A stretch of DNA of 64,000 bases, taken from the NCBI RefSeq assembly GCF_036320655.1, contig NZ_CP143258.1, positions 1,426,001 to 1,490,000 on the forward strand, in the 5' to 3' direction. Position numbers and translations under genes: made by a program. The notes beneath the pieces are model-generated. The model made no database searches, was not told the origin of the DNA, and saw nothing but the letters and a program-made list of their open reading frames with translations. Below are positions 17,851-55,619 of the stretch, in pieces. The stretch's first letter is position 1; each line of letters opens with the position of its first letter. This DNA is from Porphyromonas pogonae. GTDB taxonomy: Bacteria; Bacteroidota; Bacteroidia; Bacteroidales; Porphyromonadaceae.

Positions 17851-18764
17851 AATTTCTTTTATCTTCAATATATTACGCAACAATGTTATTCGGATTTTCC
17901 TTCGTTAGTCTCTTACAATCGTTTTGTAGAATTACAAAGCAAGGTGGCTTCAAACTAATTTCATTTCTCAATATGAGACCGTTGCATAGCAGGCAAATTG
18001 CTTCGTTGCTTGCGAGATTCGCGCTTAGTCATTTACCTGAAGTAAACTCCCTGTGCACTCACTCTTAGCGCCTTGCACTTTACCTTCTCTGCCCGGTCAA
18101 AGTGTCTTTTGTCGGCTTTGCCTCCAAAATCCATGAGACTGTTGACTTTTGCAACAGTCTCAATATGTGTTGTCTGGGCGAATGCACCGGCATCTCATTC
18201 ATTGATTCCATACCTTTACGCACCTGCCATATCAAGCGGGCACACGGGCATAAGACCATGAAAGGGTGGGCCCAAAAGGGCAAATGCAGTATGGGATGGT
18301 TCTATGGTTTCAACCTGCATATTGTGATTAACGACCGGGGTGAAATCACTCAATATCAAATCACACCGGGGAATACGGATGAACGTGCTCCACTTAAAGG
18401 CGGAACCTTCACGAAGAAACTATTCGGCAAACTTGTTGGCGACAGAGGATACATCTCACAAAGTCTTTTCGATAAGCTCTTCATTGACGACATACACATG
18501 ATTACGAAGATAAAGAAAAACATGAAAAACACTCTGATAAGCCTGTATGATAGGATATTACTCAGAAAAAGAGCACTTGTGGAAACCGTTAATGATCTAC
18601 TCAAAAACGTTTGTCAAATAGAGCATACACGACACAGAAGCGTCAATAATTTCTCCATTAATTTGATTGCCGGCATAATTGCCTACAATCTGCTACCCAA
18701 AAAGTCGGAATTAAATCTCGAAATCATACACAATCCATCAACCCACTTAGTATCCCACGCTTAG
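17851..18764 (+). pseudogene. IS982-family transposase, inactivated by deletion, frameshift and MITE insertion
   Basis: From 17851 one frame reads FFYLQYITQQCYSDFPSLV then SYNRFVELQSKVASN and a stop. Shifting one base restores FKLISFLNM up to the MITE boundary. After the MITE, CCLGECTGISFIDSIPL continues the same protein to HTRHRSVNNFSINLIAG. The DDE residues are present (FIDS, VGDRGYIS, VETVND), as are the IS982 hallmarks SMGWFYGFNLHIV and ILLRKRALVETVND. The open frame from the GTG at 18102 is a chimera: its first 20 residues are translated MITE sequence and do not belong to the transposase. Not functional. Confidence 0.8.
17975..18161 (+). mobile_element. 187-bp MITE, copy 1, inserted in the IS982 transposase gene
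   Basis: It starts GAGACCGTTGCAT (17975) and ends TTGCAACAGTCTC (18161), giving terminal inverted repeats of the form GAGACYGTTGCA. It is flanked by direct repeats AATAT (17970-17974 and 18162-18166), a 5-bp target duplication. A second, inverted copy of exactly the same length lies at 20947-21133 and differs at only about half a dozen positions. It has no coding capacity. In this copy the right end also forms a GAGACTGTTG/CAACAGTCTC hairpin. Confidence 0.85.
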
Positions 18765-18828
18765 ACCGAACTCACGTTAAAAAGATATTAATCAATAAAA
18801 GAATACAAATTGTATGTAAAGATAATTT

Positions 18829-18867
18829 GAGGGAGTATCAATAAAATGAAGTTTATGATACTTCCTC
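18829..18867 (-). terminator. Terminator of C10 protease copy 1
   Basis: GAGGGAGTATCA (18829-18840) pairs with TGATACTTCCTC (18856-18867), about 105 bp beyond the stop of the minus-strand protease gene at 18973. Confidence 0.65.
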
Positions 18868-18972
18868 ATTTGATCTTATACTTTTGTCATGCGAAATCAC
18901 ACATTGTTTGCCCTTCACTTATAATAAAAATGATATATGTGTTTCTTAGACAAATAGATGATAAGTCTTTTA

Positions 18973-20667
18973 CTATTTGATTACAAGAGTATAATCCTCA
19001 ACCTCACCGTGATTAAATGTTTCACAAGGAGAGGGCTTAGCACCATATTTCATTGTAACGCGCATTCTGTATGAACCCGACTTTAGAGTTTTAGGTAAAT
19101 TAAGATTGCCTGTTATAGTTGTTGTTGCTTTTTTATTAAGGATCATTTCTGTTGATTCAAAAATACCGTTGTTATCAAGGTCAATCCAAGCCCCCCAGTA
19201 GTTGTTGTAAAGTCCACCATCATAAACACCCGGAACAAATCTGCAAGGCAATGAAGTACCTGCTGTTGCTATGATGTGTTTTTGAGTGTAATCACCATAA
19301 CCTATATCACTACCTCCGGTCACATTTGACATATTACCGATTGTAACTTCTTTGATATAGAGATATTGTGTATATATTGACGCTGATGAACAATATTGTG
19401 GAGCATCGGGATCTGGAGTAGGATCAGGATCTGGTCCTGGAGGAGGAGTCTGAGCTGGAGCAAAACCAATTACAATAACTTGGTTTCTGTTGAATCCACC
19501 CGTACCACCGCCTGTACCCAAATTATCGGGATCAAGAGCGTTTAGCTTGAAGTATCCATCAGACATGCCACCCCATCCCCAGTTGATGTGGAAGTAGTTA
19601 TTTTTAGAGTAGCCGTCACAAACAAATGAGTGGCCGCCTCCGCCTCCATAACCTGCATATTGCACAGGGCGTCTGGCATCCAATTCTGCGCGTACGAGAG
19701 CTTCCCAATCTTTATCTGAATAAGCCCAACGAAAAGCGTTTGTTACAGTACTTGGATATTTATAAAACTTCTGAATCATGTTAGGTACATCTGTTTGCAT
19801 AGCACCACTGCCTTTTGGACCAAAGCGCATATTTACCCCTACAGCTACACCGTAACAGAACTTTGCCACCAAAGAGTCAGGTTCAGTGAGTCTGGGTTTG
19901 GGCATGGCTTTCCAATCAAGTTTATAATTGTAGTCGAAAGATTGGATTCCATAAGAGGGATGATTATAACTATGCTTACCTTTACCTGATTCAGGATACT
20001 CCCAGTAGCGCATGATTTGTGCTGTAGCAGTTGCAACACAACCTACCGGGCAACCTTCTGGGCAATAAGCATTGTAATATGGCCTTTGAGACCAGTGGAT
20101 ATTACCGAGAAGAGGAGCTACCGTGATGGTGTCTTGAGGGTTGTTATATCTTCCTCTCAAAGCTGCATTTCTCATAGCTACAGTCTTTTCATTGGCTTTG
20201 ATATGCTTCCATGCATACTTAACCTCCTGTGAATAATCACTAAGCATATCCTGCATATTTGCGGGGATATCTTTCGGATCAAAGGTAGATTCTGTGGAGT
20301 AACCAAGTACCGGATAAGTTGCATCAGAAGCTGAAACGATAACAAAACCGGTTTTATTAACCTCAATTACGTAGTAAGTTGGTTTTTGTGCTTGGGAATC
20401 AGAGCTTTTTAAATTTGATCCCTGAGCATCGGTGTAAATAACTTTGAGCTCGGACGCCGACGAAGTACGCATCTCGGGAGCCAGGTTTTCACTACCCATA
20501 AAGGTTGCGGCAATGTCCAAGGCTTGTTTTTCATTTACGAAGCCAGACTCGGAAGGTTCAGCAGGACCTCCTTGTCTTGAGGCATAGTCGTCTTTGGAGC
20601 ACGAAAATAAGAGTAAAACTGCGGATCCGGCAAGTAGGAGCCGCCAAAAGCGATTAAAATTACTCAT
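18973..20667 (-). CDS. C10 family (streptopain/PrtT-type) cysteine protease lipoprotein with GEVED domain, copy 1
   Basis: A 565-residue secreted cysteine protease. The lipoprotein signal (MSNFNRFWRLLLAGSA, then LLFSC) places the lipidated Cys at residue 23. A Spi/streptopain-type propeptide follows (VNEKQALDIAATFMGSENL, to about residue 180). The catalytic Cys is C210 in CPVGCVATATAQIMRYWEYP and the catalytic His is H346 in GGGGGHSFVCDGY, with NWGWGG after it. A Pro-Asp linker (TPPPGPDPDPTPDPD) leads to a C-terminal GEVED domain ending GEVEDYTLVIK. The start at 20667 puts the lipobox at the N-terminus; an upstream in-frame ATG at 20757 would add 30 polar residues. First of four tandem paralogues with separate terminators. 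Likely role: surface degradation of host proteins. Confidence 0.9.
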   Translation of the reverse strand: MSNFNRFWRLLLAGSAVLLLFSCSKDDYASRQGGPAEPSESGFVNEKQALDIAATFMGSENLAPEMRTSSASELKVIYTDAQGSNLKSSDSQAQKPTYYVIEVNKTGFVIVSASDATYPVLGYSTESTFDPKDIPANMQDMLSDYSQEVKYAWKHIKANEKTVAMRNAALRGRYNNPQDTITVAPLLGNIHWSQRPYYNAYCPEGCPVGCVATATAQIMRYWEYPESGKGKHSYNHPSYGIQSFDYNYKLDWKAMPKPRLTEPDSLVAKFCYGVAVGVNMRFGPKGSGAMQTDVPNMIQKFYKYPSTVTNAFRWAYSDKDWEALVRAELDARRPVQYAGYGGGGGHSFVCDGYSKNNYFHINWGWGGMSDGYFKLNALDPDNLGTGGGTGGFNRNQVIVIGFAPAQTPPPGPDPDPTPDPDAPQYCSSASIYTQYLYIKEVTIGNMSNVTGGSDIGYGDYTQKHIIATAGTSLPCRFVPGVYDGGLYNNYWGAWIDLDNNGIFESTEMILNKKATTTITGNLNLPKTLKSGSYRMRVTMKYGAKPSPCETFNHGEVEDYTLVIK

Positions 20668-20946
20668 GGTAAAAACTATTTTTAAATTATACAAATTCGG
20701 TGTTGATATGGCAGAAGGGCTTTTCCCATAGTACACCTTTATATTAATAAAATTCAATACACAGCAAAAAAAGATTTTTTACCTCAGAGTATGTTATACA
20801 TATATGTAATACAGATTGATAATATAACATAATCCAATTGTAAAAGTAGTGAATATATCTGAATTTACAAGGCTTTTAATGTAATAATATAGCTCATATA
20901 AAAATCTATAATTTTATATTTACTAATAAGTAGACGGATCTTTGTA
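20668..20946. other. Upstream region of C10 copy 1, conserved leader block
   Basis: The first 100 or so bases upstream of each of the four protease genes are similar: a block reading AATTTGTATAATTT just before the start, then AAGCCCTTCT-like and TGTATTGAATTTTATTAATA-like segments. This suggests a shared long 5' leader duplicated with the genes. I could not find a convincing -33/-7 pair in it. Confidence 0.45.
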
Positions 20947-21133
20947 GAGACTGTTGCAAAAGTCAACTGCCTTGTGGATTTTGGAGGCAAAGCCGACAAA
21001 AGACACTTTGACCGGGCAGAGAAGGTAAAGTGCAAGGCGCTAAGAGTGAGTGCACAGGGAGTTTACTTCAGGTAAATGACCAAGCGCGAATCTCGCAAGC
21101 AACGAAGCAATTTGCCTGCTATGCAACGGTCTC
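20947..21133 (-). mobile_element. 187-bp MITE, copy 2, between protease genes
   Basis: Inverted relative to copy 1. It begins GAGACTGTTGCAAAAG (20947) and ends ATGCAACGGTCTC (21133), flanked by TTGTA direct repeats (20942-20946 and 21134-21138). Length is exactly 187 bp. Apart from about six substitutions it is identical to the element at 17975-18161, so both were mobilised recently. It lies between the upstream leader of copy 1 and the terminator of copy 2 and does not break a gene. Confidence 0.85.
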
Positions 21134-21190
21134 TTGTAAACTGAATTAATTTACGGGACTATTCTAATAATACTGAAATCAAACATAAAA

Positions 21191-21223
21191 CGAGGGGCTT
21201 GCCTCCTTTTAGGCAGCCCCTCG
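21191..21223 (-). terminator. Terminator of C10 protease copy 2
   Basis: CGAGGGGCTTGCC (21191-21203) pairs with GGCAGCCCCTCG (21212-21223) with one bulged base. On the minus strand a T-rich stretch follows. Confidence 0.75.
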
Positions 21224-21325
21224 CCGGGTTTCAGATCTTATTTCATTTAATTATACACTACTTTTGCCCTTCTGTTAAATAAAAATTATACATGTATGTC
21301 GTAGACAGATCAAATAAGCTTATTG

Positions 21326-23005
21326 CTATTTGATAACAAGAGTATAGTCTTCAACTTCACCGTGATCAAATGTTTCACAAGGATCCGGTTGTGCATCATA
21401 CTTCATTGTAACACGTACTCTGTATGAGCCGGGCTTTAATTTTTTAGGTAATTTAAGATTGCCGTTAATAATGTCTGATGTGTTTTGGTTAAGGAGCATC
21501 TCAGATAATTCAAAAATACCGTTGTTATCAAGGTCAATCCAAACAGTCCAAAAGCTATTATAAAGTATGCCGTCACGATACCCCGGAGCAAAGCGACAAG
21601 CCAATGAAGTGCCGGCTGTTGCTATGATCTTTTTTTGAGTATAATCACCATAACCAGTTTTGCTACCTTCAGTTATATTGGACATGCTTCCTATTGTAAC
21701 TTCTTTTATATAAAGATATTGAGTCTCTCTTGACGCAGATGTGCAATACTGAGGTTCATCGGGGTCAGGTGTAGGGTTAGGATTTGGGTCGGGATCTGGT
21801 CCAGGAGGAGGAGTCTGACCTGGAGCAAACCCGATTATAATTTCTTGGTGTAAGTTATACCCATCAACACTCTTTGGGGCAGTGTTTAACCTGAAATATC
21901 CATCTGATCTTCCTCCCCATCCCCAGTTTATATGGAAGTAATCATTTTTAGAATAACCATCACAAACAAATGAGTGTCCTCCTGCATTATCATAACCTGC
22001 ATATTGCACCGGACGTCTGGCATTTAGCTCTTTTTTTACTATGCCTATCCACTCTTCATCGGAGTACCCCCAACGGTAGACACATGCTACAGTGCTGGGA
22101 TATTTATAATGTTTTTGGAGCATATTAGGGACTATTGTATGAGATGTGCCACTACCATTAGGGCTAAAGTTCATATTTAATCCTATTGCTACGCCATAAC
22201 AGAACTTTGCTACTAAAGAATCCGGTGCGGTAAGTCTGGCTTTTGGCATGGCTTTCCAATCAAGCTTATAATTATAATCGAAGGATTGCACTCCATAGAC
22301 GGCATGCTTGTAGCTGTGCACATCCCTTCCCGATTCGGGGTATTCCCAGTAGCGCATGATTTGTGCTGTAGCTGTAGCTACACAGCCCACCGGGCACTCA
22401 TCAGGACAATAGTCATTGTAATATGGCTCTTGAGCCCAATGGATATCACCGAGAAGGGGGGCTACTGTAATGGTGTCTTGAGGATCAGTATATCTGCCCT
22501 TTAAGCTTGCGTTTCGCATTGACACAGTTTTATCATCAGCTTTAATATGCTTCCATGCATATTTAACCTCCTTTGAATAATAGGCAAGCAAGTCCTGCAT
22601 GTTAGCAGGGATATCTTTGGGGTTAAAGGTTGATTCCGTAGAGTAACCAAATACGGGATAGGTCGCATCGGAAGCTGAAACGATAACAAAACCGGCTTTA
22701 TTTACGTCAATAATGTAGTAAGTTGGTTTTTGTGTTTCTGAATTTCTCAAATTTGATTCCTGGGCATCGGTGTAAATAACTTTGAGCTCAGGGGGGGACG
22801 AAGTACGCATCCCGGGGGTGAGGTTTTCACTACCCATAAAAGTTGCGGCAATGTCCAAGGCTTGTTTTTCGTTTACAAAGCCCGATTCGTTAGGTTCGGC
22901 AGGATTTTCTTGTCTTGAGGCATAGTCATCCTTGGAGCACGAAAATAAAAGTAAAGTAGCGGATCCGGCAAGTAGAAGCCGCCAAAAGCGATTAAAATTA
23001 CTCAT
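21326..23005 (-). CDS. C10 family cysteine protease lipoprotein with GEVED domain, copy 2
   Basis: A 559-residue paralogue of copy 1 with the same order: lipobox LLFSC at residue 23, propeptide, catalytic Cys in CPVGCVATATAQIMRYWEYP, catalytic His in NAGGHSFVCDGYS, NWGWGG, a longer Pro-Asp-Asn linker (DPDPNPNPTPDPDEP), and the GEVED domain. The propeptide is closest to copy 1 (KDDYASRQ, VNEKQALD), while its C-terminal end (KLKPGSYRVRVTMKYDAQP) matches copy 3, a mosaic pattern. A run of seven C bases in the coding strand (plus-strand 22791-22797) encodes the SSPPEL segment and could slip. The start at 23005 is chosen by the lipobox. Confidence 0.9.
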   Translation of the reverse strand: MSNFNRFWRLLLAGSATLLLFSCSKDDYASRQENPAEPNESGFVNEKQALDIAATFMGSENLTPGMRTSSPPELKVIYTDAQESNLRNSETQKPTYYIIDVNKAGFVIVSASDATYPVFGYSTESTFNPKDIPANMQDLLAYYSKEVKYAWKHIKADDKTVSMRNASLKGRYTDPQDTITVAPLLGDIHWAQEPYYNDYCPDECPVGCVATATAQIMRYWEYPESGRDVHSYKHAVYGVQSFDYNYKLDWKAMPKARLTAPDSLVAKFCYGVAIGLNMNFSPNGSGTSHTIVPNMLQKHYKYPSTVACVYRWGYSDEEWIGIVKKELNARRPVQYAGYDNAGGHSFVCDGYSKNDYFHINWGWGGRSDGYFRLNTAPKSVDGYNLHQEIIIGFAPGQTPPPGPDPDPNPNPTPDPDEPQYCTSASRETQYLYIKEVTIGSMSNITEGSKTGYGDYTQKKIIATAGTSLACRFAPGYRDGILYNSFWTVWIDLDNNGIFELSEMLLNQNTSDIINGNLKLPKKLKPGSYRVRVTMKYDAQPDPCETFDHGEVEDYTLVIK

Positions 23006-23329
23006 GGTAAAAACTATTTTTAAATTATACAAATTTGGTGTTATTATGAAAGAAGGGCATTTTCATAGAACACCTTTTATTAATAAAAATTCAATACACA
23101 GGAATAGGTTTTTTTACCTCAGATTATACTATATATACATATAATATAGGTTGATAATACAGCATAATTCAAACTAAAATTAGTCAATATTTTGGTAATA
23201 TAATGCATTTACTACCATCCTTGTCATTAATTATGATTATGTCATTTAAATTAACATATTTCTTTGTTGTTTGAAAAAATGAATGTATGTTATATCTCTC
23301 ATTCTGATACACTGTCGTAATCATGGAAA

Positions 23330-23359
23330 AGGGGCTTGTCTCAAAATGAGACAGCCCCT
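23330..23359 (-). terminator. Terminator of C10 protease copy 3
   Basis: AGGGGCTTGTCTCA (23330-23343) pairs with TGAGACAGCCCCT (23347-23359). An A-run on its left gives the U-run of the minus-strand transcript. It resembles the terminator of copy 2, so it was probably duplicated with the gene. Confidence 0.75.
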
Positions 23360-23464
23360 CGCTTGGTTCTACATCTTATCTCTGTTATTAACACATTTAT
23401 TTTGCCCTTCTGTTAAATAAAAAATGATACATATGTGTCGTAGCCAGATCAAGTAAGTTTCTTG

Positions 23465-25171
23465 CTATTTAATAACAAGAGTGTAGTCTTCAACTTCACC
23501 GTGATTAAATGTTTCACAAGGAGCCGGTTGTGCATCATACTTCATTGTAACACGTACTCTGTATGAGCCGGGCTTTAATCCTTTAGGTAAGTTAAGATTA
23601 CCGTTAATAACATTTGAAGTATTTTGGTTAAGAATCATCTCGGATGATTCAAAAATACCGTTGTTATCAAGGTCAATCCAAGCCCCCCAGTAGTTGTTGT
23701 AAAGTCCACCATCGTAAACGCCTGGAACAAATCTACAAGCCAATGAAGTACCTGCTGTTGCTATGATCTTTTTTTGAGTGTAATCACCATAGCCAGTTTC
23801 ACTACCTCCCGTCACATTTGACATATTGCCTATTGTAACTTCCTTGATATAGAGGTATTGTGTATATATTGATGCAGATGTACAGTACTTAGGAGCATCG
23901 GGGTCAGGTGTAGGATTAGGATCTGGGTCGGGATCCGGCCCGGGGGGAGGAGTCTGGCCTGGAGCGAACCCGATTACAATTTCTTGGTGTTTATTGAATC
24001 CTCCGTCACCACCTCCTGTGCCCAGATTATCAGGGTCAAGAGCATTTAGCTTGAAGTATCCGTCAGACATACCTCCCCATCCCCAGTTGATATGGAAGTA
24101 ATCATTTTTAGAGTAGCCGTCACAAACAAATGAGTGACCGCCTCCGCTTCCACTCCCAGCATATTGCACAGGGCGCTTGGCATCCAACTCTCTTTTTACG
24201 AGGGCTATCCATTCTTTATCAGAGTGTCCCCAACGGTTAACGCTCGCTACAGTTTTAGGATATTTATAATGCTTTTGAAGCATAGTGGGTACGTCAAATT
24301 GGTATGCCCCGCTACCCTCGGTTGTAAAGCCCATGTTTATACCCACAGCCACGCCATAACAGAATTTTGCGACCAAAGAATCCGGTTTTGTGAGTTTGTG
24401 CTTGGGCATAGCCTTCCAATCCAGTTTATAATTGTAGTCGAAAGATTGTGTTCCATAAGTGGGATGGTTATAACTGTGCTTACCTGTACCTGATTCTGGA
24501 TACTCCCAGTAGCGCATGATCTGTGCTGCCGCTGTTGCAACACATCCTACCGGACAACCTTTAGGGCAATAATCATTGTAGTACGGGCTTTGGTCCCAGT
24601 GGATATCGCCAAGAAGGGGAGCCACCGTAACCGTATCCTGTAATGAATCTTTTTTACCTCTCAACGCTGCGTTTCGCATAGCCACAGTTTTTTCATTAGT
24701 TTTGATATACTTCCAGGCATATTTAACCTCTTTTGAATATCCTGCAAGTAGTTGTTGCATGTTAGCCGGAATATTTTGGGGGGTAAAACGAGATTCTGTA
24801 GAATAGCCGAGTACAGGATAAGTTGCATCAGATCCTGATACAATAACGAATCCTTTTTTATTTACGTCTATTACATAGTAGCTTGGATTTTGATTTGAAG
24901 ATGTTGCACTTTTCAAGTCTGAAGATTGAATGTCTGTGTAAATGACTTTCAAATCTTGAACTGATGTTGTGCGTAGTCCCGGAGCTAAGTTTTCGCTCTC
25001 CATAAAAGTTGCAGCGATGTCTAAAGCTTGTTTCTCTGTTACAAAACCAGATTCAGTAGGTTCTGTTGTACTTTCTTGTCTTGAACCTAACTCATCTTTT
25101 GTACACGAAAATAAAATTAAAACTGCGGATCCGGCAAGTAGGAGCCGCCAAAAACGATTAAAATTACTCAT
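23465..25171 (-). CDS. C10 family cysteine protease lipoprotein with GEVED domain, copy 3
   Basis: A 568-residue paralogue. The lipobox is ILFSC at residue 23. The propeptide is of the copy 4 type (TTEPTESGFVTEKQALDIA). Catalytic Cys is in CPVGCVATAAAQIMRYWEYP and catalytic His in GSGGGHSFVCDGYS. The linker is the longest Pro-Asp type (DPDPDPNPTPDPDAPKYC), and the GEVED domain is almost identical to copy 1 over VPGVYDGGLYNNYWGAWIDL but to copy 2 in its last 50 residues. The start ATG at 25171 coincides with the conserved MSNFNRFWRLLLAG. It has its own terminator and the shared upstream block. Presumed surface protease; substrate unknown. Confidence 0.9.
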   Translation of the reverse strand: MSNFNRFWRLLLAGSAVLILFSCTKDELGSRQESTTEPTESGFVTEKQALDIAATFMESENLAPGLRTTSVQDLKVIYTDIQSSDLKSATSSNQNPSYYVIDVNKKGFVIVSGSDATYPVLGYSTESRFTPQNIPANMQQLLAGYSKEVKYAWKYIKTNEKTVAMRNAALRGKKDSLQDTVTVAPLLGDIHWDQSPYYNDYCPKGCPVGCVATAAAQIMRYWEYPESGTGKHSYNHPTYGTQSFDYNYKLDWKAMPKHKLTKPDSLVAKFCYGVAVGINMGFTTEGSGAYQFDVPTMLQKHYKYPKTVASVNRWGHSDKEWIALVKRELDAKRPVQYAGSGSGGGHSFVCDGYSKNDYFHINWGWGGMSDGYFKLNALDPDNLGTGGGDGGFNKHQEIVIGFAPGQTPPPGPDPDPDPNPTPDPDAPKYCTSASIYTQYLYIKEVTIGNMSNVTGGSETGYGDYTQKKIIATAGTSLACRFVPGVYDGGLYNNYWGAWIDLDNNGIFESSEMILNQNTSNVINGNLNLPKGLKPGSYRVRVTMKYDAQPAPCETFNHGEVEDYTLVIK

Positions 25172-25550
25172 GGTAAATACTATTTTAAATTATACAAATT
25201 CGGTGCTGATTTGGAAGAAGGGCTTTTCCAATTCGCACCATTATTCAATAAAAAAATCAATACACAGCAAAAAAGTCTTATCTCTGATTATTTGTGAAAC
25301 AATAATAGATTTGTCACAATATAATCTTCTATAATAAAAGACGTGATTATAATCTCATGATTAGAATATTTTACGTTTGTAATTTATTCTGATTTATAGA
25401 GGTTGGTCTGGTTATTATAGTAATGAATAGAGAGAATGGCGTAAATAAAGTTCGGCAGCTCTATTATTCGGTTTTCTATAATAGTCCTGTTTTTAAATCT
25501 GTTTTTAACTTTAGACTTAAAAATACAAATTGTAGTCTTGTTTTATCAAT

Positions 25551-25597
25551 GGTTTTACATAGATCTCAAAACATCATTTTGAGATCTATGCAAAACC
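25551..25597 (-). terminator. Strong terminator of C10 protease copy 4
   Basis: A 21-bp inverted repeat with one mismatch (25551-25571 against 25577-25597; core CATAGATCTCAAAA and TTTTGAGATCTATG) around a 5-nt loop, just beyond the stop at 25620. Confidence 0.8.
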
Positions 25598-25619
25598 CAT
25601 TAAATTTGTTTTCAGAAAA

Positions 25620-26840
25620 TTATCTTCTAGGAGCAAATCCTACAATTATAGATTGTCTTGCGTTGAATCCTCCGGCTCCTCCACCTGTACCAAGATCACT
25701 TGGGTTAAGCGCATTTAGCAAGAAGTAACCATCTGAAGTTCCACCCCAGCCCCAGTTCATGTGATAGTAATTGTTTTTGGTGTATCCATCACATACAAAG
25801 GCATGACCACCTCTGCTTCCATGACCTGAATATTGCACGGGGCGCCTAGCATCTAATTCTTTACGTACTAATTTATGCCAATCTTTTACTTCGTATTGAG
25901 AGCGATAAGCAATTTGTACTGTAGAAGGATATTTATAATATGTCTTTAACATATTCGGTATATCCTCAGGGAGGGCTCCACTTCCTCTAGGGCTAAACTC
26001 CATATCCAAACCGACAGCTACTCCATAACAGAATTTCGCAACCAATGAATCAGCCTCTGACAACGTGGCTTTGGGCATTGATTTCCAATCAATATTGTAT
26101 TCATAATTGAAAGATTGAGTTCCATAGACTTTATGTTTGTAGCTATGACTTCCTGTCCCTGATCTAGGGTATTCCCAATAACGCATAATCTGAGCTACAG
26201 CTGTTGCAGCACAACCAACAGGACATCCTTTGGGACAATAATCATTGTAATATGGATCTTGTGCCCATTTGATACTTCCCAATAAAGGAGCTACAACAAT
26301 AGTATCTTGAGAATTTCTTGTTCTTCTGCTCAAAATAGAACTGCGCATAGCTTCTGTTTTTTCATTAGATTTGATATGCTTCCAAGCATATTTAATTTCT
26401 TTTGAATAATCAGAGAGCATATCCTGCATATTGGTAGGTATGTCCTTTGGATTAAAAGCTGATTCAGTAGAATAGCCAAGAACAGGATAAGTAGCATCTG
26501 ATGCTGATACGATTACAAAGCCTTTTTTGTTTACATCAATAACATAATAAGTTGGCTTTTGATTAGAGTTTGCAGAGCTTTTCATACCAGAGCCTTGGGC
26601 ATCAGTATAAATAACGCTTAGTTCTGGTTTTGATGATGCACGTAAATCCGGAGCAATATTGTCACTCTCCATAAAGGTTGCGGCAATGTCCAGCGCTTGT
26701 TTCTCTGTTACAAAACCGGATTCGGTTGGTTCGGTTGTGCCTTCTTGCTTTGAGGCTAAGTTGTCCTTAGTGCACGAAAATAAAAGTAAAACTGCGGAGC
26801 CGGCAAGTAAAAGCCGCCAAAAACGATTAAATCTACTCAT
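25620..26840 (-). CDS. C10 family cysteine protease lipoprotein, copy 4, without GEVED domain
   Basis: A 406-residue paralogue with lipobox LLFSC, propeptide, catalytic Cys in CPVGCAATAVAQIMRYWEYP and catalytic His in SRGGHAFVCDGYT. It ends right after the protease domain (QSIIVGFAPRR), with neither the Pro-Asp linker nor the GEVED domain of the other three. No GEVED remnant is visible downstream: a terminator follows at once, so this looks like a stable short form rather than a recent truncation. It has the same short C-terminus as the decayed copy at 17.5 kb. The start at 26840 is set by the lipobox. Anchored like the others but probably located or processed differently. Confidence 0.88.
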   Translation of the reverse strand: MSRFNRFWRLLLAGSAVLLLFSCTKDNLASKQEGTTEPTESGFVTEKQALDIAATFMESDNIAPDLRASSKPELSVIYTDAQGSGMKSSANSNQKPTYYVIDVNKKGFVIVSASDATYPVLGYSTESAFNPKDIPTNMQDMLSDYSKEIKYAWKHIKSNEKTEAMRSSILSRRTRNSQDTIVVAPLLGSIKWAQDPYYNDYCPKGCPVGCAATAVAQIMRYWEYPRSGTGSHSYKHKVYGTQSFNYEYNIDWKSMPKATLSEADSLVAKFCYGVAVGLDMEFSPRGSGALPEDIPNMLKTYYKYPSTVQIAYRSQYEVKDWHKLVRKELDARRPVQYSGHGSRGGHAFVCDGYTKNNYYHMNWGWGGTSDGYFLLNALNPSDLGTGGGAGGFNARQSIIVGFAPRR

Positions 26841-27329
26841 GGTAAAAACTATTTTTAAATTATACAAAGTCGGTGATCGTTGGATATAAGAGCCTAACCC
26901 ATTTTCACACCTTTATATTTAATAAAATTCAATACATAGCAAAAAAAGTCTTTTTACCGCGGATCATGTCTGCAATAATTTAGTATACATTGACATTGCA
27001 ACATAATCCAACGTAAAAGTAATAAATATGTGTGGATTTCCAATACCTTTTATGAAATATAAATTATTTTATGGAAATTTTATTATACTATCTATATTCA
27101 TGGTTGTTTTGTGTTTTAATCTGCCTGATGCGATGTATTTATTAAACTGATGTGTTTAGATCTAAATAAAAATGATATCATGTAGCATTATTATTTATAA
27201 ATATAGGCATGGTGCTGCAAGAGTATGCATCCTTACTTGAGTTTTTGTTCTCTTAGATATTTTTCATTAATCTCCGATGGATAGCTCCGATTGGCAAATA
27301 CACGAGTCCCATACGGACGTTTTGCCTAG

Positions 27330-55439: not shown

Positions 55440-55487
55440 GCCTCTGCAATCTCTGATTTCGTGGGCTGTTGTGTGAGGGGGAGAAAA

Positions 55488-55619
55488 CTGTCGACATATC
55501 CTGCCGAAACTGTCGACATATTCAGCCAAAACTGTCGACATATTTCGCCGAAACTGTCGACATATTCAGCCGAAACTGTCGACATATTTTCAGCGAGCTG
55601 TCGGCATGTGGTTCAAAGG
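55488..55619 (-). repeat. Six tandem 22-bp repeats containing the palindrome TGTCGACA
   Basis: CTGTCGACATAT begins at 55488, 55510, 55532, 55554 and 55576, and a degenerate CTGTCGGCATGT at 55598: exactly 22 bp apart each time. The 10 variable bases between are themselves similar (TTCAGCCGAAA-like). Five units carry the perfect 8-bp palindrome. They lie between the HerA-like stop and the HU-like start. Open frames through them on both strands are artefacts of a stop-free repeat. Confidence 0.85.

Follow-up and report, generated by a model that had tools for sequence, protein, structure and literature searches.

Several short mobile repeats have been described in Porphyromonas gingivalis and in more distant bacteria. 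According to PMC4596501, the P. gingivalis miniature inverted-repeat transposable element (MITE) MITEPgRS/MITE464 has a length of 464, ends GAGACTGTTGCA and TGCAACGGTCTC and 41-nt tandem repeats; ISPg4, an insertion sequence (IS) of the IS5 family, has ends GAGACTGTTGCA and CGCAACAGTCTC; and the BrickBuilt MITE has IS5-type ends GAGACCTTTGCA, a 23-nt minisatellite interior and irregular duplications. For enterobacterial repetitive intergenic consensus (ERIC) sequences, no partner transposase is known, and PMC2229807 states that such likeness of bacterial repeats was either not looked for or not found, with one exception. The same article reports, from De Gregorio 2005, that Yersinia ERIC has an orientation-dependent effect on neighbouring mRNA and that upstream transcripts are destabilised by way of an RNase E site. 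Here, a 187-bp MITE was analysed in a 64,000-nt stretch of the Porphyromonas pogonae genome (NZ_CP143258.1, positions 1,426,001 to 1,490,000; hereafter the window), where it occurs twice (Table 1). The 12-base ends of copy 2 are identical to those of MITEPgRS/MITE464, from which the element differs, as far as a comparison by description goes, in length and in its interior (no tandem repeat was found inside it in the window repeat search, and 98 of 100 copies are 187 bp long). The ends of ISPg4 resemble those of a 1330-bp IS found elsewhere in the P. pogonae genome; BrickBuilt has ends like those of a second IS5 family of this genome and is unlike the 187-bp MITE in its interior and its irregular duplications. 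We consider it probable, with somewhat better than even confidence, that the MITE is moved in trans by the 1330-bp IS and that its interior is a widespread RNA core, shared with ERIC and under selection at the level of the lineage.

Table 1. Positions of the MITE copies, their parts and the interrupted transposase remnant (window coordinates; a point marks features given no strand).
Feature	Position	Strand	Basis
MITE copy 1, 187 bp	17975..18161	- (fold strand)	direct reading, repeat search, genome comparison
Left AATAT of copy 1, 5-bp target duplication	17970..17974	.	direct reading
Right AATAT of copy 1, target duplication	18162..18166	.	direct reading
124-nt structured core of copy 1	17975..18098	-	model R1, 117.4 bits
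Hairpin 1 of copy 1, 27 nt, inverted repeat of terminal sequence	18135..18161	-	direct reading, folding
MITE copy 2, 187 bp	20947..21133	+ (fold strand)	direct reading, repeat search, genome comparison
Left TTGTA of copy 2, target duplication	20942..20946	.	direct reading
Right TTGTA of copy 2, target duplication	21134..21138	.	direct reading
124-nt structured core of copy 2	21010..21133	+	model R1, 120.0 bits
IS982-type transposase remnant, target of copy 1 insertion, not partner	18167..18764	+	NCBIfam transpos_IS982

A first-pass annotation, made from the letters alone, had described two oppositely oriented 187-bp copies with GAGACYGTTGCA ends, each flanked by its own 5-bp duplication (AATAT for copy 1, TTGTA for copy 2), and direct reading agreed on every point. 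It was right that the copies differ little; its figure of about six differences was corrected to five positions, four of which lie at or beside the inner arm of the terminal hairpin. The window repeat search returned a single inverted pair (187 nt, 97% complementary). The end motif alone (≤2 mismatches) was not above chance in the 64-kb window (8 occurrences, 6.75 expected); evidence for the element was taken from the 187-bp repeat and the genome count. In the genome, one closed contig of 2,916,423 bases, GAGACYGTTGCA occurred 156+155 times vs 1+1 for a reversed control pattern, and both ends were perfect at a spacing of 172–202 bp in 58+65 = 123 elements (control 0+0). Copies were then surveyed by BLAST over 357,853 of the genome bases, giving 106 matches, 100 of them full-length (187 bp in 98, 179 bp in one and 188 bp in one). 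Duplications of 5 bp were exact in 82 of the 100 and carried one mismatch in 8, with neither in 10; exact flanking repeats of other lengths were found in 6 (3 bp), 8 (4 bp), 0 (6 bp) and 0 (7 bp). Target sites were AT-rich, and mean pairwise identity was 96.6% (98 copies). The element is short and multi-copy, with terminal inverted repeats and target duplications of fixed length, as expected of a MITE, and no transposase frame was found inside its 187 bp; as a transposon it is ordinary. The proposal of a recently spread non-autonomous element is supported by copy number, precise ends, 5-bp duplications and identity, and the 187-bp boundary and the duplications recur elsewhere in the genome. 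To this reading is added an interior covarying fold common to elements with other ends and to ERIC.

Three parts make up the element: hairpin 1 (27 nt), a middle hairpin and a core rod of 124 nt, which the terminal repeat closes. The inner arm of hairpin 1 is mutated in copy 2 (20947–20973). The terminal hairpin also occurs alone, as a 27-bp copy at C1:233397-233423 (L035:698-724), flanked by inverted CCATAAT/ATTATGG with no direct duplication. Copy 1, on the strand read from hairpin 1 (minus), folded at -71.3 kcal/mol (z -6.93; opposite strand, z -2.96), and the core alone gave z -3.79 on the fold strand and -0.76 on the other for copy 1, and -4.47 and -1.23 for copy 2. The core consists of covarying helices with purine-rich internal loops between them. 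In an unfitted alignment (MAFFT, 16 cores, with the structure derived from the same alignment), 96.1% of 413 cells were paired (24.8–37.8% when slid by 1–3 columns) and 15 of 26 pairs had double changes. When 55 distinct rows were fitted to model R1, 96.0% of 1395 cells were paired (slid controls, 28.1–39.4%), with double changes in 23 of 26 pairs vs 16.7 by shuffling and in 348 cells vs 104 shuffled. Alignment A4 (71 rows, ERIC included) had 94.0% of 1814 cells paired (slid, 31.9–41.7%) and 198 G.U cells vs 30 A.C, with one G.U pair kept in 68 of 71 rows; in 70 of 71 rows, RNA parameters gave the model strand greater stability than the reverse strand. The excess of G.U over A.C and the stability of the model strand therefore point to constraint on one strand, for which RNA is a likelier form than single-stranded DNA, and we infer that the core acts as RNA. 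Against a protein-coding interior, conserved helices and strand-specific G.U cells speak for structure. Rfam 15 gave no match up to E 1 for window positions 17900–21300, and only five sub-threshold microRNA models for 18 related loci (best E 0.035). A search of the open-access literature by title and opening of the abstract, with subscription papers including the primary ERIC papers outside its scope, returned no link between ERIC and Bacteroidota repeats and no such fold. The superfamily of folds, ERIC included, is large and apparently undescribed.

Distribution was examined by search with the 187-bp query and with models R1 and R2, both calibrated briefly; R2 was trained on Bacteroidota only, with no ERIC in training. 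Sequence related to the 187-bp query was present in 27 of 297 genomes, the own genome included. Within the genus, R2 at E≤0.001 matched 21 of 26 genomes and none of the other five, with 137 matches in the own genome and 5 core matches in one congener (G025). R1 at 1e-4 matched 80 of 393 genomes of the order, in 55 of 206 genera; training sequences had come from three of these genomes (G000, G026, G149). For the class draw, R2 at 1e-4 matched 30 of 395 genomes, of which 27 lie outside the order and had supplied no training sequence, and the matches ran mostly end to end along the model. For the phylum draw, it matched 26 of 345, 25 outside the class and 23 of those in one family. A 20-base pattern scan for named hosts gave at least 114 stretches, and R2 was run on 40 of the 80 among those listed. 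At E≤0.01 a match was obtained in 29 and no match in 11 of the 40 (L136, L144, L145, L150, L162, L166, L172, L176, L178, L188, L193). Hosts confirmed by R2 include Porphyromonas somerae, P. uenonis, P. loveana, Tannerella, Prevotellamassilia, Hallella, Paludibacter and Barnesiella; the pattern hits in Pedosphaera, Roseilinea, Roizmanbacteria, Reyranella, Hymenobacter, Planctomycetota and Parabacteroides distasonis fall among the 11 stretches with no R2 match and were not confirmed.

The ends of core-bearing elements vary (GAGACYGTTGCA, GAGAATGTTGCACG, GGGGCTGTGTCAAAA, GAGGGTGTCCGAAAAGT, TAGTGTTTGCAAGAAAAC, TAGAGTCTGTC, GGGCACCTCTATAAA and more). Eight related elements with GAGAC-type ends were measured, with 5-bp duplications in seven and a 6-bp duplication in one. 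Seven of the eight are 172–175 bp long and have other hairpin-1 sequences that still form hairpins when folded; the eighth (L089) is 125 bp long and is without hairpins 1 and 2. Constant duplication length was seen in the GAGAC-type set only, and no recurring length was found in the other end sets, for which ends were placed by eye. Elements with GGGGCTGTG ends (L079 and L082 types) have a run of T right after hairpin 1 and therefore a terminator-like look. Shorter relatives (102–106 nt) with AAGGCGACAAGGCGAAGC-type motifs were seen in genomes of the class (L272, L275, L276) and are possibly a further subfamily.

The apical motif of the core resembles the ERIC primer sequences. A 44-base ERIC query matched 5375 of 5426 E. 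coli genomes. Nine enterobacterial ERIC-type loci were assembled (7 of 40 spread over 337 plasmid records and 2 of the 6 rows of the 44-base search), and R2 matched eight of them, six end to end. The eight scores, 30.6–40.5 bits, were 40.5 for Serratia, 36.8 for Rahnella, 35.2 for Proteus, 35.1 for Klebsiella, 33.7 for Pectobacterium, 32.7 and 31.9 for E. coli and 30.6 for Citrobacter. R1 gave 26.2 and 25.1 bits on two E. coli ERIC loci. In a background of 248,259 bases, from E. coli and other sources, the sole non-ERIC match of R2 scored 14.8 bits (E 0.76) and lay in a 23S rRNA gene. The same letter was held at ≥80% in both the ERIC and the Bacteroidota groups in 21 alignment columns, 9 of them unpaired. 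ERIC is like the core of the 187-bp element in length (~124–127 bp), in forming a long imperfect hairpin on one strand and in being mostly intergenic, and the ~127-bp imperfect hairpin of the ERIC core is found in the MITE core through R2. ERIC is unlike the MITE in its termini, in having neither hairpin 1 nor the middle hairpin, and in its enterobacterial rather than Porphyromonas host. Because termini and host differ, the MITE was related to ERIC by fold and not filed as ERIC. That a single ~124-nt RNA fold has descended into the mobile repeats of both Bacteroidota and Pseudomonadota, its ends and transposase having been swapped many times, is given a little less than an even chance. The fold would then have been kept for an RNA-level effect that renders insertions acceptable or useful, with ERIC as its enterobacterial branch and Correia perhaps as another, and the changed ends of its carriers would imply changed transposases.

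Correia/NEMIS elements of Neisseria, also small MITEs, have a core resembling the AAGGCG and GGCAACGCC motifs. The R2 match to Correia was weak (19.8 bits, E 5e-4 in 4.8 kb), end to end and on the expected strand, with the apical part poorly aligned, and on this score Correia was not counted as a firm member of the superfamily. On a Cupriavidus metallidurans CH34 megaplasmid, a segment (L344:182-295) 85% alike to the Correia core was observed between other perfect inverted ends, AGAGGCGCTATCAAAATG.

The autonomous partner, said by the first-pass annotation to lie outside the window, was sought as a transposase gene between matching ends, and a 1330-bp IS5-type candidate was found at C1:468666-469995, in a region selected through the end motif. 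Its ends are GAGACTGTTGCACGAG and GAGACTGTTGAAAAAGTC, its duplication is AATAG, and its transposase has DDE_Tnp_1 and DUF772 domains (NCBIfam transpos_IS5_4, 221.3 bits vs a cut-off of 140). A second copy (L052) has the duplication TATTG, and one IS end equals one MITE end at 17 of the first 18 bases. Intact transposase genes lie between matching ends, and two of these elements have 5-bp duplications; the MITE itself has inserted into two copies (L053, L056), and other copies are decayed. A second IS5 family has four copies (L057-L060) with GAGACCTTTGCA ends and exact 5-bp duplications in three; when both IS families were examined, GAGACTGTTGCA ends turned up in the 1330-bp family alone. The 1330-bp transposase is predicted, from ends and duplication length only, to move the MITE. 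The core as part of an autonomous IS was rejected: over eight own-genome IS loci (L051, L052, L054, L055, L057-L060), R2 matched at L054 and L057 only, each time in a neighbouring MITE and never in the IS. The MITE interior is not derived from the 1330-bp IS, in which there is no core match. A 411-bp stretch at C1:984781-985191 (L064:1339-1749) is bounded by both ends of the 1330-bp IS and is apparently an internal deletion derivative of it, a second kind of MITE.

Genomic context was scored for the 100 full-length elements with a crude open-frame picker as gene caller; 11 were dropped (one flank outside the surveyed stretches), leaving 89 with both flanks. Of these, 83 are intergenic and 6 lie inside an open frame; the surveyed flanks are themselves rich in intergenic DNA, because random points fall in frames in only 194 of 400 cases. 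Eleven of the 83 are without one neighbour, and the remaining 72 lie between convergent (32), tandem (35) or divergent (5) genes. Neighbouring genes face the element with their 3' ends in 107 of 155 cases (p 2e-6). On origin and terminus positions guessed from sparse GC skew, bias to one replication strand was weak and not significant (55 of 133, p 0.056). Across 98 copies, the 80 paired core sites carried 57 rare variants and the 44 unpaired ones 34, and variant pairs were kept in 92 cases and broken in 97; low variation in the ends is partly a sampling effect, because most copies were found via perfect ends. Neither site variation nor pair keeping among the 98 copies supports a host function at each locus. 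Conservation of the structure is seen from lineage to lineage, not within single copies, and selection therefore seems to act on source elements, on the spreading lineage rather than on each inserted copy. The lineage may keep the fold for tolerable insertions or for a service to movement itself.

On the favoured reading, the resident 1330-bp IS5-type transposase (with ISPg4-like ends) would act in trans on the MITE, recognising its 12-bp GAGACYGTTGCA ends and duplicating 5 bp of AT-rich target. The interior would be a 124-nt structured core on one strand, part of a fold superfamily with many different ends. It would be transcribed by read-through from neighbours, mostly facing their 3' ends, and its RNA may be bound or cut by conserved RNA machinery, by analogy with ERIC in Yersinia. 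Selection would favour more tolerable or more successful insertions of the spreading lineage and not each copy, and the core would therefore outlive changes of transposase. Several results weigh against this reading. Five congeners (G018, G023, G002, G021, G019) have 21–69 core matches each and no relative of the 1330-bp transposase at E≤1e-20. Both ends were seen in six 1330-bp copies; 5-bp duplications were exact in two of these, carried one mismatch in one and were absent from three. R2 gave no match to one of the nine ERIC-type loci (L350) or to the Cupriavidus stretch found by BLAST with a Correia query (L344), and E-values are rough because model calibration was short. Further pair types in the unfitted alignment were not above shuffles (121 of 500 reach the number), and the 98 own-genome copies, taken singly, show no constraint on pairs. 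The core was unbiased in orientation across the 35 tandem gene pairs (14 vs 21, p 0.31). DNA folding parameters gave the same strand bias in 70 of 71 rows, which leaves room for a role as single-stranded DNA.

Four other explanations were weighed. An ordinary MITE, whose imperfect palindrome grew from its terminal repeats, whose fold has no function and whose ERIC likeness is chance or palindrome convergence, would account for the lack of constraint on pairs among own-genome copies, and MITEs commonly fold into long hairpins (PMC10969869 and PMC2229807). It does not fit the excess of double changes over shuffling, the near-random pairing of slid alignments, the internal-loop letters fixed in common with ERIC, or the end-to-end model matches over most class-level hits against a background of 14.8 bits; it is largely refuted as regards covariation, and we regard it as improbable. 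If the fold instead had more than one origin, ERIC and the Bacteroidota elements would have converged on one shape for the same conserved RNA machinery. Their differing termini, the lower R2 scores of ERIC than of Bacteroidota elements and the low sequence identity apart from a few motifs are consistent with this; letters in common at unpaired columns, the same ~124-nt length, end-to-end matches in 6 of 8 ERIC loci and weaker intermediates in outlying classes of the phylum argue for a single origin, so that convergence is held to be rather unlikely while keeping an appreciable share of belief.

The conserved form could also be single-stranded or cruciform DNA that helps movement or replication. 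DNA parameters reproduce the strand bias, constraint between lineages but not in single copies is what a spreading trait would be expected to show, and orientation is unbiased relative to tandem genes. The 5-bp duplications and short inverted ends point instead to double-strand DDE transposition, the single G.U pair kept almost throughout A4 favours RNA, and the replication-strand bias is not significant; a DNA form is held to be unlikely. A similarly low probability is attached to movement of the MITE by another transposase, of the second IS5 family or since lost, with the ends of the 1330-bp IS common by descent only. It would explain the congeners that have the same MITE ends in many copies without the 1330-bp transposase, and the second IS5 family does make exact 5-bp duplications; against it, that family has GAGACCTTTGCA ends, and GAGACTGTTGCA ends were seen in the 1330-bp family.

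Other features of the window were recorded alongside. The frame at 18102–18764 scored 216 bits against NCBIfam transpos_IS982, and an open frame runs across the empty site of copy 1. Four similar genes lie in tandem on the minus strand at 18973–26860 (300-nt repeat families); the products of the first two are Peptidase_C10 (streptopain-like) proteins that also carry Inhibitor_I69 and GEVED domains, and MITE copy 2 is located between these two genes. At 55484–55615 there is a 22-bp direct-repeat array of at least 5 units around AAACTGTCGACATAT.

Bacterial MITEs are usually viewed as unrelated, lineage-specific debris of local insertion sequences. If the favoured reading is true, such repeats would be vehicles of one selected module whose core persists through many sets of terminal repeats, ERIC included. 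ERIC would gain relatives whose ends can be identified and which have a candidate transposase resident beside them in the genome, its reported RNA-level effects would become testable in another phylum, and one covariance model would be usable to annotate unlabelled repeats. The analysis suggests that short jumping repeats thought to be unrelated have one old RNA module in common.

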